Positions 12,313-18,811 of a stretch of DNA of 64,000 nucleotides are shown piece after piece. Position 1 is the first letter of the stretch. Each line of letters starts with the position of its first letter. The translations under genes and the position numbers were made by a program. Source of the stretch: Acidobacteriota bacterium (GTDB lineage: Bacteria > Acidobacteriota > Holophagae > Holophagales > Holophagaceae); assembly GCA_021794095.1 (NCBI GenBank), contig JAJYRN010000009.1:1-64000 (forward strand), given 5' to 3'. Below the pieces are notes generated by a model. That model saw nothing but the letters and a program-made list of their open reading frames with translations. It was not told the DNA's origin and made no database searches.

Positions 12313-12999
<687 letters not shown>

Positions 13000-13219
13000 G
13001 GGAGGAACGCCCTTCCGCTGCCAGGCTTTGCGGAGGGTGCTTCCACCCGGCATAGGCGCTGCTTCAAGGCCTGCGGCAGTAGGGGCTGCTGCCCGGCTGG
13101 AGATCTTCCCACCCGATACCCCGCCCCCATGGATCAAGACCGGATGACCGTCCATGCGGGCCCGTGGTGCGGGCTGATGTGTGGTTGACAAAAGGCGAGA
13201 ATAAAACGAATACATAAAA
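13000..13219. other. Non-coding left flank of the accessory island
   Basis: No convincing gene is seen between ftsE and the transposase remnant. A possible promoter for the remnant has TTGACA at 13185-13190, with only a weak -10 (AATACA or TACATA) at workable spacing. The sequence goes from chromosome-like GC content to AT-rich just before 13220, which could mark the left boundary of the inserted DNA. Confidence 0.45.
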
Positions 13220-13719
13220 ATGCTCTGCGCCCGGCCATACCAGCCGCGAGTCTTCGACCAGGCCCTGCTTCATCGCTGTGTGGCCCAGCACTGGCCCTGC
13301 GTGCGAAGGGCTTGTGAAGCCCACGGGCGCCCCTTGCCCTCCTTCGTCCAGCGCGAGTTTGACGCCTACCTCCGTTGCGGCGATCTGCCCTGGTGCCGCC
13401 ACCGAGGATGCACCTGGCGCACTACTTCGGCGTGCTGGCTCCGAGCGCACGGCTGCGGAAACAGGTGGTGCCTGAAGCGCCAGTAAACGCCGATCTGGAT
13501 CCCTGCGGCCACAGCGTGGCCTATAACGAAACCCGCAACGGCAGGACCATCCGGCGGCGCTGGGTGCCCTGGGCGCAGCTCCTGCTCAAGGTGTTCTCGG
13601 TGGATGTGATGGCGTGCCCGCACTGCGCCTCGCGGATGCAACGCATCGCCGTCATCCAGCAGCCCAAGGTGATCGCCGCGATCCTCGACTGTCTCAGCCA
13701 GAAGGAACAGCCGCCCTGA
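13220..13719 (+). pseudogene. IS91-family transposase remnant with a large internal deletion
   Basis: The first part (13220 to about 13390) encodes HWPCVRRACEAHGRPLPSF followed by a YLRCGDL stretch, the start of the zinc-binding domain of IS91-type transposases. The second part, in another frame (about 13384-13719), encodes LVPPPRMHLAHYFGVLAP, then RRRWVPWAQLLLKVFSVDV and a CPHC...M motif, the C-terminal end of the same family. Everything between, including the catalytic Tyr/His region, is missing, so the element is dead. About 165 of an expected 400-500 residues remain. The junction lies near 13380-13395. Confidence 0.8.
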
Positions 13720-14446
13720 AGGAACCTCGATCTCCCGACATCGCGGATGATTTTGCCAGGGTCACACTTGACCCTGGCATAGCCCTGTCACATCCTGGCT
13801 GGGAACCCTCGTTGACAACCTGGATCAAGGCCATGACGGGCCTTTGGAACCCTGTTACAACCCAATCCAGCCCCCGGCACGAATCAAATCCATCTCCGCA
13901 ACTTGAAATGCCACCCCCACAGCGCCAAAATGGGGCCTTTGAATTCCCTATCCACTTGCGTATTTCAATATATGCCTGCTTTGTGTCCGGTTCGGTTTTT
14001 GGATTAATGATTGTTATGTAATTAGTGAGTGTGATAAATAGCTCTCTTTCGAGTTTGTTTATGGGATCAATTAAGACATTGAGTGTATCGCCCCAAAGCA
14101 CTTCTGCTTCGATTAGTTCTGCTTGGAGTTCAGTTCGAACCTCAACGACGCGATCCCAGCGTTTCTGATAGGCGCCCGAGACGCCATAGAAATGGATCTG
14201 TTGAGAGTCCATTTTCTTGGCCTCTTCTTCGGGAGGTTGAGGTTGTTCGTTCACCCAAATTGCAGGATTCCGAACATTTTTAAGTGCATTACGGTGGCGA
14301 TACACAGCTCGTAACACACGCCGTGATAGGTCATATTCACTTGACCCGCGGAGCTGACGATTCCATGTATTCAATCCTCGAAGGGCAACATAGATACCGA
14401 CGATGCCCCCACAAGTAAGCACGAGATCCTTTATTACTGTGAGCAT
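13694..14446 (-). CDS. Membrane-anchored protein of unknown function, 3' end probably replaced
   Basis: The start ATG 14446 has AGAGGA upstream. The first 170 residues look genuine: a single N-terminal membrane helix (LVLTCGGIVGIYVAL), then LNTWNRQLRGSSEYDLSRRVL and a charged helical cytoplasmic part. From about residue 172 (near base 13930) the composition changes to Gly/Ser/Cys-rich sequence, GC content rises, and the frame then runs into the transposase remnant. I infer that the original 3' end was lost at the mobile-element junction and the frame reads on by chance to 13694. No known domain is recognised. Confidence 0.5.
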   Translation of the reverse strand: MLTVIKDLVLTCGGIVGIYVALRGLNTWNRQLRGSSEYDLSRRVLRAVYRHRNALKNVRNPAIWVNEQPQPPEEEAKKMDSQQIHFYGVSGAYQKRWDRVVEVRTELQAELIEAEVLWGDTLNVLIDPINKLERELFITLTNYITIINPKTEPDTKQAYIEIRKWIGNSKAPFWRCGGGISSCGDGFDSCRGLDWVVTGFQRPVMALIQVVNEGSQPGCDRAMPGSSVTLAKSSAMSGDRGSFRAAVPSG

Positions 14447-14545
14447 CGAGGTTTCCTCTCACATTGGTAAGCCTAATGGATGCAGTTAACCGACCCGCCT
14501 GCACCGAGGGGCTGAACGGACCCTTCAGTGCTACTACGAGATGTC

Positions 14546-15532
14546 TTACTCATGCTTAACAGTGTCTCGTGCTGAGACTTTGCGTTTCATTATGGCGCCA
14601 TCAAGTATTGTGTATGTCATTGCAGGAAGAATAAAGGTAAGAACTAGCTGTAATATTAAAAATATAGTTAAAATAAAATTATATGATGTTATACCAAGTG
14701 TCTGCCTCCAATATTTTTCTATTGGTGGGATGATTAAGTTGTTGAAGAGTAAAACTGCACTCAATAAAGAGTCTAGGCAAGTCAAGCCAACCTTGATGGC
14801 TTGTAAGATTGGAAGACCAATAGTCGCTGAGTGAGTCAGGAAGTTTGCAATTATAGGAATAAATAACCATAATAGTACAAAATATAAAATATTTGTTTCA
14901 ATAAGTTCATAGATTATTCTCAACCCAAACAATATGAATCCAATGGATGGGATCACTATTAGCCATGCTTTTATATTTTTATGGATTTCTTCCCGATCAT
15001 ATTTGGCAATTTTTCTTGGCCGAGAAACATCTCGATAACATGTTAGACAGAATGGCCCACTGGCTTTTTCAAAATATTTGCAGGAATCACACAGATTGAT
15101 TGAACATGAGGCACAGTTGGCTGTGGCCTTCTTGTGGGAATGTTTTGAACAGCACCCTTTTTCTGCAATATCATGAAAATATTGAATTTCAAGCGCCTTC
15201 ATGTTCTTGTCACACTCGGGGCATGTTATACGTCTAAGACCAGTAATAAGGGAATACCCCGGTGTGCCAACACAAGTCGCGCATATCGGTCTGGCACACT
15301 GGTCACAAAATCCGTCAAACTCGGCACTAGGATGGAAGACGCAATGAATCTTTGCGTTCGGAGAAATCTCAGGTGGCTTGAAAGCCCAGCCGCTACCCTT
15401 GCCACACTTCGCACAATAAGCTCGGTCATCTGCAAACGGTGTAAAGCAGCGGATGCAACGGTCGAAGGGGCCTATTTCATCCGCATCGTAACGGTCGGTG
15501 TCTTCAATGATGTGCCTTGATTCGTTACTCAT
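14546..15532 (-). CDS. Zinc-ribbon / B-box-like membrane protein of unknown function
   Basis: The 328-residue protein has three cysteine-rich clusters in its first 170 residues. They are an N-terminal ribbon (CIRC...CAKC), a B-box-like block (CVFHPSAEFDGFCDQCARPIC followed by CPEC) and a second B-box-like block (CSKHSHKKATANCASCSINLCDSC...CLTC). Four hydrophobic segments fill the C-terminal half (for example AWLIVIPSIGFILFG and FILTIFLILQLVLTFILPA). A cytoplasmic zinc module on a membrane body suggests sensing or scaffolding, but no function is known to me. The gene is clearly AT-rich compared with the chromosome, which suggests acquisition. Confidence 0.7.
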   Translation of the reverse strand: MSNESRHIIEDTDRYDADEIGPFDRCIRCFTPFADDRAYCAKCGKGSGWAFKPPEISPNAKIHCVFHPSAEFDGFCDQCARPICATCVGTPGYSLITGLRRITCPECDKNMKALEIQYFHDIAEKGCCSKHSHKKATANCASCSINLCDSCKYFEKASGPFCLTCYRDVSRPRKIAKYDREEIHKNIKAWLIVIPSIGFILFGLRIIYELIETNILYFVLLWLFIPIIANFLTHSATIGLPILQAIKVGLTCLDSLLSAVLLFNNLIIPPIEKYWRQTLGITSYNFILTIFLILQLVLTFILPAMTYTILDGAIMKRKVSARDTVKHE

Positions 15533-15659
15533 TTAACACGCTTTTAAAAGTGTAGCTGAGTGCCAGAATGCTTGAATCTGTGAGCGATGATACCCGCCAT
15601 TTCGACTTAGTCCATCCTGCAATAGCCACTCGGGCTTCCGGCGGTACCTAATGCCTCGA

Positions 15660-16604
15660 CTATGATTCGCCCTCAACCCAAGGCTTGATGGCCAGTAGCT
15701 CGTGGCGCAGCCGAGCTTTCGCGCCCTTCCCAACGTGTAATTCCTTTTCCTGATGGAAGACGCCTACGCATCTTGTTGGCAGTTCCCTTGGAGCTGTCGA
15801 CAGATCAAAATCGTCTGCAATTCGGCCATCAAACCACTTGCCAACCTCAGGTTGGAATTCATACCTTCGGCCAAAACGCATCAAGCCATAGAGCATGCCA
15901 GATATCTCGATGGTGTCTGCTTGTTTTTCGACTCGCCTCGCCCTTCCAGCAATGTGTAGGATTGAAGGACGATCAATCACAGTGTTGAACGCGTCAGACC
16001 GGAATTTAAGCGTGGCGTTGTTGTCCACAACGTGTTGGAAGAACCCAGCCAGGGCCTGGATCGACCTTCTGTCAACTTGTCCGACTCGCATGTTGAACTT
16101 GTCATCATCGAGTTTGTCGAAGTCGTCGATCAGAGCAACAGCATCCTTTATTGCTTCTTCAGTGTAGGAACTACCAAGGATCTTGGTGTCGCCGATTGGT
16201 GCAGCGGCCTCTTGGAATTGGAAGCCAAAGGACCCCTCTGCTGTACCCACGATTAATAATGGTCGCGGATCAAACTGAGCACGTAAGGCCTTGGTAGTTT
16301 TCTTTCGAATTCCGTCAAGTCTTGCGTTCACTAGAGCGACAAATTTTTCTATGGCCTCAGGCACAAAAGCGGCATGAATTCCTTTTGTGGATTCCACCGG
16401 CGCACCATCAAAAAGCAGTTCGATTTCGGCCGGACGAGGTACATCCGTTTCTGTTGGAAGCGCCAACAGTTCTTCTCGCACAGCGTCCAACCGAACTTGC
16501 AGGGTGTCGCGCCCAAACCAATCGTCCGTGGGACAGGATTCGATTATTCGAAGCAGTTCGGACTCCTGGGCCAACAAGAAGGTGCGGTCAGTCGCGCGAC
16601 TCAC
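15660..16604 (-). CDS. Partner protein coupled to the nucleotidyltransferase-like gene, unknown function
   Basis: The 314-residue protein starts at a GTG that overlaps the stop codon of the upstream gene (GTGA, 16601-16604), so the two are translationally coupled. It has no signal peptide or membrane segment. The N-terminal third is helical. The middle holds PLLIVGTAEGSFGFQFQEA, and the C-terminal part is beta-rich and basic at the end. I do not recognise the family. Coupling to an intact nucleotidyltransferase makes it a candidate antitoxin, substrate or effector (inference). Confidence 0.65.
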   Translation of the reverse strand: MSRATDRTFLLAQESELLRIIESCPTDDWFGRDTLQVRLDAVREELLALPTETDVPRPAEIELLFDGAPVESTKGIHAAFVPEAIEKFVALVNARLDGIRKKTTKALRAQFDPRPLLIVGTAEGSFGFQFQEAAAPIGDTKILGSSYTEEAIKDAVALIDDFDKLDDDKFNMRVGQVDRRSIQALAGFFQHVVDNNATLKFRSDAFNTVIDRPSILHIAGRARRVEKQADTIEISGMLYGLMRFGRRYEFQPEVGKWFDGRIADDFDLSTAPRELPTRCVGVFHQEKELHVGKGAKARLRHELLAIKPWVEGES

Positions 16605-17260
16605 AAGACACCCCCTTTCTTTTTCTTCTTTGGTTTCTTTCTAAGTAGGTTGACGGCCCGCTGATCGTCAAGATCCGTCAGCAGGGGAATCTCGGCCATG
16701 CCCTTCCAGAGCGGTTGAGCACCCCCAATGCTTCTTGAATGTCCAAAGAGATTGCACCAGTAGGTGACATCAGAAGTAGTGGCAACGACGGATCCCGGGC
16801 CGCCCGCAGGATTAACGATTGCCGTTTTCATGAGAAAGGCATCGCATCGGTACTTCGTTTTTAATACATGTCGATGGGGCGTGGAGATGAAGGTTCGGAA
16901 TTCTGTGTGCTTCGGGTGTCCGGGTTGTGGCACGCTTGCATCATCAACAAGGGTTACCACGTCGATGTCATTTGGCTCGCGACCCCTGAGTTTCTGACAG
17001 TCCTCAATAAAACTGCCACCAATCCACTGTGACCCGACGACGCCAAAGGCGCGCAGCTCTTTCCGATACTGGAAAAAACCCTTAAGGATGAGCTTTCTGT
17101 TCCCCGTCGTGCCGAAAAGCGTAACGAATTCCTCCGGTGTAAATATGTGCGGAGAGAATCCGTTTGGGACGCCAGTCCCAGTAGTCCCCGTGTATGGGGG
17201 GAGGACACCTTGAGGGGTGAGAGCTAACACGTTTTCCTCTGCGGTAGGCAGTAATTTCAC
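16601..17260 (-). CDS. Pol-beta-fold nucleotidyltransferase-like protein (DUF6932-like)
   Basis: The 219-residue protein carries the nucleotidyltransferase pattern GSQWIGGSF, then NDIDVVTLV with the metal-binding Asp pair (DID), and a later Asp in KYRCDAFLMKT that could be the third ligand. The overall layout resembles DUF6932 proteins. It ends in a run of lysines (KKPKKKKKGG). It starts at a GTG and is followed by a coupled partner gene. Known relatives of the fold include MNT-type antitoxins and second-messenger synthases, but the motif differs from CBASS cyclases and the product cannot be predicted. Confidence 0.65.
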   Translation of the reverse strand: MKLLPTAEENVLALTPQGVLPPYTGTTGTGVPNGFSPHIFTPEEFVTLFGTTGNRKLILKGFFQYRKELRAFGVVGSQWIGGSFIEDCQKLRGREPNDIDVVTLVDDASVPQPGHPKHTEFRTFISTPHRHVLKTKYRCDAFLMKTAIVNPAGGPGSVVATTSDVTYWCNLFGHSRSIGGAQPLWKGMAEIPLLTDLDDQRAVNLLRKKPKKKKKGGVL

Positions 17261-17349
17261 CAGGATGTCGGAATCCCGTCTACCTCAATCGCAATCAAGA
17301 TCCATACCGTCCAAATAATTGCCACAGAAGTGAGACTCGCTTGGCCCAT
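17257..17349 (-). CDS. Possible 30-residue single-pass membrane peptide
   Basis: An ATG at 17349 opens a 30-codon frame whose centre is hydrophobic (LTSVAIIWTVWILIAIEV). Its TGA overlaps the GTG start of the nucleotidyltransferase gene (GTGA, 17257-17260). The overlap suggests a coupled leader peptide, but there is no well-placed ribosome-binding site. The frame is also open further upstream, so this may be chance. Confidence 0.25.
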   Translation of the reverse strand: MGQASLTSVAIIWTVWILIAIEVDGIPTSW

Positions 17350-17584
17350 GGTGCTAGCTTGAAACCCCTTCCAAGGAGTGCGATAGCGCATTGGAGGGGC
17401 CGTGTTCAGACGAAGACGCGCAAGGTGCCAAAGACGGCCCCGCGTGACCAGTTGTCCCTGTGGTTCGATCAGGTAACGGTAGAATTGGCGGCGCACGGCA
17501 CAATCAGGTATGCAAACCATTCACACCAGTCAGTCCCCTGCTGAGTATTTCAAGTCCGACCAGCCAGAGCCCGGCCATCGACAG
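17350..17584. other. Island stretch with no convincing gene
   Basis: Short frames exist on both strands, but none has a ribosome-binding site or a recognisable motif. The sequence is compositionally mixed and may contain decayed mobile DNA. Confidence 0.4.
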
Positions 17585-17914
17585 CTAATTGGCAGGGTCC
17601 TGGTTCTCCATCCGAAGGTAAAGGAAGACGACTGCCTCCATGACCCGAGCTGGCTTCATATGCATGGTGGTCGCCATTTCCGTAACCCATTGGAGTTCAG
17701 GCTTCCCAACCTTGGCTCTCACGTTCTTGTAGCGAGAGCCACTTCGACTCTTCTTGACACCATCGATGACTTGGCTGAGATGGTCGGTCGTGACAATCGG
17801 TTTGATCGTACGAATTGCTCTGGTGAAGAAGGTTGAGTAACCAACCCCACCTGTCCGAGTAACCAGGAGGTCGTAGGACTCCATGTCGAGAACACAAATC
17901 GGAGAGATTTCCAT
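17585..17914 (-). CDS. Small hypothetical protein with a possible ribbon-helix-helix-like tail
   Basis: The 109-residue frame starts at ATG 17914; a GGGAG touches the start codon, so initiation may instead be at the internal ATG 17881. The C-terminal half (LQWVTEMATTMHMKPARVMEAVVFLYLRMEN) has the spacing of a helix-turn-helix or ribbon-helix-helix DNA-binding protein. It lies upstream of the nucleotidyltransferase pair on the same strand and could be its regulator. This is weak evidence; the frame could also be fortuitous. Confidence 0.35.
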   Translation of the reverse strand: MEISPICVLDMESYDLLVTRTGGVGYSTFFTRAIRTIKPIVTTDHLSQVIDGVKKSRSGSRYKNVRAKVGKPELQWVTEMATTMHMKPARVMEAVVFLYLRMENQDPAN

Positions 17915-18223
17915 CTCCCAACTCGATGCTTCCTCTCCGGTATCTTGCTATCCACCCACTAACGAAGCCATAAGCAGCCCAAACCCCATGCGGACCGGAC
18001 GGGCCGGGGACGGTGTTCTGAACGGGATCGCCAGTGGATTCTGCCGCCTGCCCTGCCGAGGGAGAGGGCCGGAGGGCGGTCCAGCCGATGGCGGTAAGTT
18101 CCGGGGCGAGGTCGGGATCTGACCCGGCGGGGCCTGACAGACCTGCGGGGACCACCCGCGACCTTCAGATGGCGATCTACCTGGAGCCCCAAGGCTGAAG
18201 CCAGGAGGCGGTAGACTGGCCCC
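17915..18223. other. Right flank of the accessory island, no gene seen
   Basis: GC content returns to the chromosomal level at about 17980. No frame with coding character is visible. AGGAGG at 18203-18208 lies 15 bases before the engB start. The island therefore ends between about 17920 and 17980, with no obvious direct repeat or tRNA at the boundary. Confidence 0.5.
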
Positions 18224-18811
18224 ATGCCCCAGCCCCTCACCGATGCCCGCTTCGTCACCTCCGCTTCCGATGTGCGGACGCTGGGCGTCTGCCACGCGGA
18301 GGTGGCCTTCGTGGGGCGCAGCAATGTGGGGAAGTCCTCGCTGCTGAACGCCCTGGCCAACCAGAAGCAGCTGGCGCGGGTGTCGAAGACGCCAGGCCGC
18401 ACGCGGCTCATCAATGTGTTTCTCACGGGGCCGGACCGTTGGATCGTGGATCTGCCGGGCTACGGTTTCGCCACCGGGCCCGCCGCCGAGCGCGCCACCT
18501 GGCAGAAGATGGTCGAGGGCTACCTCACGGGCCGCGCCACGCTGCGCATGGTCTTCGTGCTGGTGGATGCCGAAGTGGGCCCCACGAAGCTGGATCACGC
18601 CATGATTGACTGGCTCCGGGCCGAGGGGCTGCCCCACCGCATCGTCGCCACCAAGGCCGACCAGGTGAAACCCAGCAAGGCCCTCAAGCAACGCAAGGAT
18701 GTGGCCGCGGATCTGGGCCTCCACGCGAACGACATTGCCTGGGTGAGTTCGGAAAAGGGCACCGGCGTCCCCGAACTCCGGCGCGAAGTGGCGGATCTGC
18801 TGGGGCTATAG
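18224..18811 (+). CDS. engB: Ribosome biogenesis GTPase EngB/YsxC
   Basis: The 195-residue GTPase has G1 GRSNVGKSS, the KTPGRTRLINVF switch I region with the conserved Thr, G3 DLPGYGFA and G4 TKAD, in the order and length typical of EngB. The protein is needed for assembly of the large ribosomal subunit. It is the first chromosomal gene to the right of the accessory island and is monocistronic, with a palindromic repeat after it. Confidence 0.94.
   Translation: MPQPLTDARFVTSASDVRTLGVCHAEVAFVGRSNVGKSSLLNALANQKQLARVSKTPGRTRLINVFLTGPDRWIVDLPGYGFATGPAAERATWQKMVEGYLTGRATLRMVFVLVDAEVGPTKLDHAMIDWLRAEGLPHRIVATKADQVKPSKALKQRKDVAADLGLHANDIAWVSSEKGTGVPELRREVADLLGL

Follow-up and report, generated by a model that had tools for sequence, protein, structure and literature searches.

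The nucleotidyltransferase (NTase) toxins of MenAT and AbiE are regulated by diverse antitoxins (PMC11375011). PADLOC lists a DUF6932 NTase with a second protein as the phage-defense candidate PDC-M63; when PDC-M63AB was deleted from E. coli NILS69, where it lies in a prophage, the plating of the tested phages was unchanged (PMC12409345). Another candidate, PDC-M32, was noted in Sinorhizobium prophages (PMC12429752). One E. coli system that proved protective in a screen contains DUF6575, a domain newly seen in defense (PMC9519451). P. putida has a RexAB-type system at the place that rexAB occupies behind the CI repressor (PMC12894663). Panacea is a precedent for one antitoxin domain serving many toxins (PMC8832971). 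Herein, we describe a pair of genes from an Acidobacteriota bacterium that touches on each of these systems.

A coupled gene pair on a strain-specific island

In the window, the whole stretch of 64,000 nucleotides that we analyzed, the gene pair proposed by an earlier sequence-only reading is confirmed, with both genes on the minus strand. The first encodes an NTase of 219 aa (16601–17260) and the second a partner of 314 aa (15660–16604). Both start with GTG, and they are coupled by a 4-nt GTGA overlap that joins the stop of the NTase to the start of the partner (16601–16604, minus strand). The pair lies on a strain-specific island (13003–18191) between ftsE (12313–12999) and engB/yihA (18224–18811). 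The pair and the island each have a G+C content of 52%, compared with 69% elsewhere in the window, which agrees with the earlier description of AT-richer accessory DNA. Since ftsE and engB are neighbors, about 7–110 nt apart, in 11 of the 13 other loci from the same genus, the island of ~5.2 kb was gained here; the remaining two loci (L065 and L068) match on the engB side only. Neither terminal repeats around the island nor a notable operator-like inverted repeat were found.

Support for the transposase debris that had been claimed nearby is weak. Two short plus-strand ORFs (13220–13719) are possible transposase remnants; their one Pfam match, to Zn_ribbon_ISL3 (E 0.068), is below the cut-off, and a DNA search of plasmids with these transposase-like remnants found nothing. 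An ORF of 250 aa (13694–14446, minus strand), whose C-terminus is antisense to the debris, and another of 109 aa (17585–17914, minus strand) have no Pfam match. The island also encodes a 328-aa zinc-ribbon/B-box-like protein (14546–15532, minus strand; Pfam zf-B_box, E 1.3e-5), with the ribbon at the N-terminus and a hydrophobic C-terminal half. It has no relatives in the plasmids searched, and its membership in the unit formed by the pair is not shown.

The first gene encodes a DUF6932 nucleotidyltransferase

A profile search of the NTase identified it as Pfam DUF6932 (PF22014; E 1.1e-26, 94.4 bits against a curated cut-off of 27). This was its sole match in the Pfam scan, AbiEii (PF08843) being absent. 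The PADLOC model PDC-M63A matched residues 44–147 (E 4e-14). The motifs are those first read from the sequence, namely GGSF, then NDIDVV, and a later Asp in CDAF; they provide the GSF and DxD signature of pol-beta NTases as G82, S83, D98, D100 and D140. The AlphaFold2 model (pLDDT 78, pTM 0.79) had mostly pol-beta-type NTases as its top structural rows: AadA (Z 5.3), Sulfolobus 2rff (5.1) and HI0073 (4.7). These Z values are modest (about 5), and the leading rows nonetheless agree. Sequence searches of the PDB found no relative of either protein; the matches that did appear (hemagglutinin, kinetochore) had E 0.07 or worse and were attributed to chance. DUF6932 was named nowhere in the literature searched.

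D98 and D100 were present in all of the DUF6932 proteins compared (22/22). At the third acidic position, nearly all members of the window class have Asp or Glu, as do the class with HTH partners and L041; in most members whose partner is a lone helical hairpin, the position is Ser. Within the window class, the triad D98/D100/D140 is kept except in L016, with one Asp-to-Glu change, and in the degenerate L003. The window NTase is probably an active nucleotide-transferring enzyme. In L003 (884–1450, plus strand), the active site reads GPP for GSF and has Arg at the third acid, while the partner is intact. Since both the GS motif and the third acid were lost there, catalysis may be dispensable in some members.

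The partner has a three-part predicted fold

The partner had been described as a protein of unrecognized family, which is accurate: no Pfam, NCBIfam or PADLOC match was found (Pfam and PADLOC to E 1), and the family it does match, phrog_18731 (E 5.6e-25), is a phage family of unknown function. All six partner homologs scanned matched phrog_18731 too. The Pfam and PADLOC scans recognized no nuclease, protease or membrane effector domain.

In the structural model (pLDDT 74, pTM 0.56), two N-terminal helices (residues 3–23 and 29–48) precede an alpha/beta middle, which contains a GSFGF motif (residues 124–128), and a C-terminal OB-like barrel (residues about 229–310). Foldseek and VIA-align grouped residues 229–310 with OB folds, including mitochondrial SSB, CusF, ExoVII and RPA (best Z 7.7). 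Because the OB fold is a common arrangement, we claim for this predicted region the OB fold class and nothing finer. Foldseek matches to solved structures were all weak (E 0.01 or worse). The best match in BFVD was a predicted DUF6575 phage protein (E 2.9e-13, 292 columns, rmsd 13.5, TM 0.43); Pfam DUF6575 (PF20215) had no match in the partner at E up to 1. A DUF6575 scan of 121 genomes gave 0 matches and, having no positive control, is uninformative. Structural rows that aligned residues 1–51 with poxvirus DNA polymerase were dismissed as a helix-hairpin coincidence. The partner seems built to control the NTase.

The pair is recurrent, old and under purifying selection

Searches of genomes, plasmids and viral contigs gave 28 other partner loci, not counting the duplicates L008 and L009 and the false locus L004, a candidate homolog (E 5e-4) that is antisense to a radical-SAM-type gene and was lost with the profile search. 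In 28 of 28, a NTase gene lies directly upstream of the partner on the same strand, with a short overlap or a small gap between the two genes. The distance matrices of the NTases and the partners were correlated with r=0.97, a value reached by 0 of 2000 permutations; such a correlation is expected of genes moving together. Since the NTase is always upstream and the distances agree to this degree, the pairing is more than chance.

In the nearest relative, L031, the NTase is 62% and the partner 80% identical to the window copy at the amino acid level, with synonymous sites saturated. At L031:6629–7303 (plus strand), on a viral contig, a NYN-domain gene (Pfam E 4e-10) immediately precedes this relative's pair. 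Partners from the other loci are about 18–26% identical to the window copy; thus, the association between NTase and partner is old. In closer pairs from other loci dN/dS is 0.035–0.084, and both genes are under purifying selection. The pair is present on plasmids, in prophages and on the window island; no relatives were found in annotated phage records. In the phylum, 4 of 396 sampled genomes had a match, one of the four being spurious, which makes the distribution patchy.

Position behind prophage repressors and near defense genes

Seventeen of the loci are viral contigs (L015–L031). In 11 of these (L018–L021, L023–L025 and L027–L030), a CI-type repressor-like gene lies 68–1333 nt upstream of the pair on the same strand. 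Every one of the eight repressors scanned (L018–L021, L023–L025 and L027) has Pfam Peptidase_S24 and seven have HTH_3; the likeness of the remaining three to these was judged by eye. The place of the pair behind the CI repressor in the 11 contigs is the rexAB location, while the window locus itself is not so placed. The anticipated two-gene module with signatures of toxin-antitoxin or defense systems is thus recurrent, both in the 28 pairings and in this prophage position.

Three loci from plasmids or genomes have neighbors of a defense type. In L014, a gene for an AbiEii NTase toxin is located about 1.2 kb upstream of the pair. In L005, genes for multiubiquitin, ThiF (ubiquitin-E1-like) and DUF6527 adjoin the pair and a CapP-like protease is encoded farther along; in L007, the neighbors are a type III methyltransferase and a helicase. 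To this extent the expected proximity to defense genes was found; enrichment of the pair in defense islands is suggested rather than shown, as the neighbor counts have no background rate. An integrase gene is near the pair in L006 and L007, and an integrase-like ORF is downstream of the partner in L002. Taken together, the position behind repressors and the defense-type neighbors favor a defense role, short of proof.

DUF6932 enzymes have several kinds of partners

DUF6932 is more widespread than the pair, with a match in 13 of the 396 phylum genomes. Where it is readable, the downstream gene shares a few bases with the DUF6932 gene, in most cases 4 nt. This downstream gene encodes a helical hairpin protein of 66–74 aa in L039, L042, L043, L047, L048 and L050, a hairpin with an XRE HTH in L034, L035, L037 and L044, a 315-aa protein made of a hairpin and an alpha/beta plus OB module in L041, or otherwise a partner of the window type. 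Plasmid-borne DUF6932 genes of cyanobacteria have hairpin-HTH partners of 172 aa; those of alphaproteobacteria have hairpin-XRE partners of 420–480 aa that carry a metallopeptidase-type motif, HELGH or HELFH (ImmA/IrrE-type). Overlapping genes of this last kind were seen at L082:2974–4850, L085:2956–4693 and L086:3043–4721; in L085, a reverse transcriptase gene lies immediately upstream of the DUF6932 locus. All five plasmid partners are recovered with a hairpin HMM (E 2e-6 to 8e-18), and in the L041 partner the N-terminus aligns with the hairpin profile at P 6e-10. Proteins of the XRE type often serve as antitoxins or regulate toxin-antitoxin operons.

Homology between this hairpin and the N-terminal helices of the window partner was not demonstrable (hhalign score 16.6, versus 14.6 in shuffles). 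As sequence comparison shows no homology to the hairpin, the proposal that these helices may hold the NTase is drawn from their position.

A region of the partner is remotely related to a PIN-associated module

When the partner family was compared with an enlarged alignment of the module, hhalign gave a score of 45.0 (P 1.9e-5) over residues 58–267, while 100 column shuffles reached at most 20.8. Without L041, the score was 33.1. A first module alignment of four members had scored 33.5; reversing the alignment gave 22.7, and none of 200 shuffles exceeded 17.9. Judged by these profile comparisons, the middle of the partner and the start of its OB region are remotely homologous to the module.

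Module proteins were found directly before PIN-type ORFs at L052:1480–2891, L055:764–2064, L073:920–2262 and L080:917–2223. The protein in L052, a homolog of the L041 partner, has no hairpin and overlaps a PIN gene (Pfam PIN, E 6.5e-18); that of L055 precedes another (E 7e-19). The PIN-like ORFs of L073 and L080 were judged by sequence only. One module protein has a weak VapB-like tail (E 0.04). A module protein and its PIN-type ORF possibly form a toxin-antitoxin pair with a large sensor-antitoxin. On a Geminocystis plasmid (L053:3929–4724 and L057:3815–4102), a 356-aa module protein that spans the record start overlaps a 95-aa ORF by one base; this ORF may be a small toxin, and a HicA-like assignment is not supported by Pfam.

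The gene order differs between the two arrangements, the NTase being first in the window pair and the PIN gene second beside the module. By their gene company, the module is in the place of an antitoxin beside PIN, and DUF6932 is in the place of a toxin beside XRE. In the window pair, the module and DUF6932 meet.

Proposed function and its alternatives

Computation establishes that the two genes are paired, which residues form the triad, how the domains are laid out, and which genes accompany the module and the NTase family. From the arrangement of the neighbors of DUF6932 and of the module we infer that the NTase is the toxic gene. On balance, we regard the pair as a toxin-antitoxin-like system, probably acting by abortive infection, with the NTase as effector and the partner as both antitoxin and sensor. 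Substrate, trigger and defense role are inferred as follows. The DUF6932 NTase would transfer a nucleotide to a host target, either an RNA or a protein in the manner of MenT or MNT enzymes; when free, it would stop growth. The N-terminal helices of the partner would keep it inactive. The alpha/beta plus OB part, which resembles binders of single-stranded nucleic acid, would sense a signal made by the phage, whereupon the signal-bound partner would release the NTase.

It is less likely, though the best of the alternatives, that the pair is a toxin-antitoxin system for addiction or the stabilization of mobile elements, with no role in defense. Its presence on plasmids, in prophages and on the island fits this, as does the lack of a phage phenotype for PDC-M63AB in one strain; the place behind prophage CI repressors and the defense-type neighbors favor defense, without proving it. 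Marginally less probable again are reversed roles as in type VII (HEPN-MNT) systems, in which the NTase would be an antitoxin that nucleotidylates a toxic partner. The NTase model does resemble the minimal NTases of HEPN-MNT pairs (HI0073, MNT antitoxins), and in that precedent MntA adenylylates its HepT toxin (PMC7641770). However, 22 partner sequences share no invariant His and hence no conserved HEPN RX4-6H motif, the partner matches neither a nuclease family nor a HEPN Pfam model, and the company of both genes is antitoxin-like on the partner side: the module beside PIN-type toxins and the XRE HTH in other DUF6932 partners.

An NTase fold beside a fold of the oligonucleotide-binding type also recalls CBASS-like logic, in which the NTase would make a nucleotide second messenger and the OB-fold partner would be the effector that binds it. 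This is very improbable, given that the CD-NTase models of PADLOC do not match the NTase, that the partner has no recognized nuclease, protease or membrane effector domain, and that most members of the DUF6932 family have a length of only about 150 aa. A housekeeping or metabolic pair unrelated to conflict is the least credible of all, in view of the patchy spread (4 of 396 phylum genomes, one of them spurious) and the mobile setting.

Returning to the toxin-antitoxin-like reading, we tentatively extend it beyond the window. DUF6932 enzymes might act as effectors in a broad and undescribed class of conflict systems whose controllers are interchangeable, the GSF/OB kind being carried by prophages as a rexAB-like immunity cassette. 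Equally tentatively, the controllers might comprise the hairpin alone, the hairpin with an XRE HTH, the hairpin with XRE and an ImmA/IrrE-type protease, and the GSF/OB-fold sensor of nucleic acid. DUF6932 is an uncharacterized NTase family; given its small set of controllers and the place of this branch behind prophage repressors, an anonymous pair becomes a testable prediction of an enzyme, an antitoxin and a sensor. The value for follow-up lies in the modular scheme around DUF6932 rather than in the single window locus.

Comparison with known systems

The NTase was held to be unlike CBASS cyclases, and the comparison agrees: no CD-NTase model matches it, and its sole PADLOC matches are models of phage-defense candidates (PDC). 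With HEPN-MNT the pair has in common a minimal NTase and an adjacent partner, but the partner is not HEPN and the roles are probably reversed. In MenAT and AbiE the NTase is likewise the toxin; the window NTase, however, is of a different family, with no AbiEii match. Lambda RexAB and P. putida RexAB are two-gene units downstream of a prophage CI repressor, as is the pair in 11 viral contigs, whereas RexB is a membrane protein and RexAB has no NTase. The DUF6575 phage proteins provide the best BFVD structural match to the partner model, but the partner has no Pfam DUF6575. Panacea (DUF4065) is a different domain from the window module, and its pairs were validated by experiment. Were the OB-fold module to sense phage nucleic acid on behalf of both the NTase and PIN toxins, it would join Panacea as a promiscuous control domain.

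PDC-M32A and the partner family have the alpha/beta plus OB module in common (hhalign score 45). Its profile matches one partner homolog (E 1e-3) and the L041 partner (7.5e-5), but not the window partner; it was the sole PADLOC model matched among six members scanned to E 5. The PDC-M32A/PIN-associated module goes with PIN-type or other genes and, L041 apart, without a DUF6932 enzyme.

PDC-M63 is the closest. Its M63A model matches the window NTase and M63B is a model of 309 positions, so that the two-gene layout and the sizes agree; M63B does not match the window partner (PADLOC to E 1), and this model (PDLC04747) was not found in the window's genome. The suggestion that the product could be new does not hold, because PADLOC already lists DUF6932 with a protein of ~309 aa as PDC-M63. 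The window pair is a divergent branch of this catalogued, unproven defense candidate rather than a kind of its own. Its novelty is that the partner escapes the M63B model and can be fitted into a wider modular scheme.
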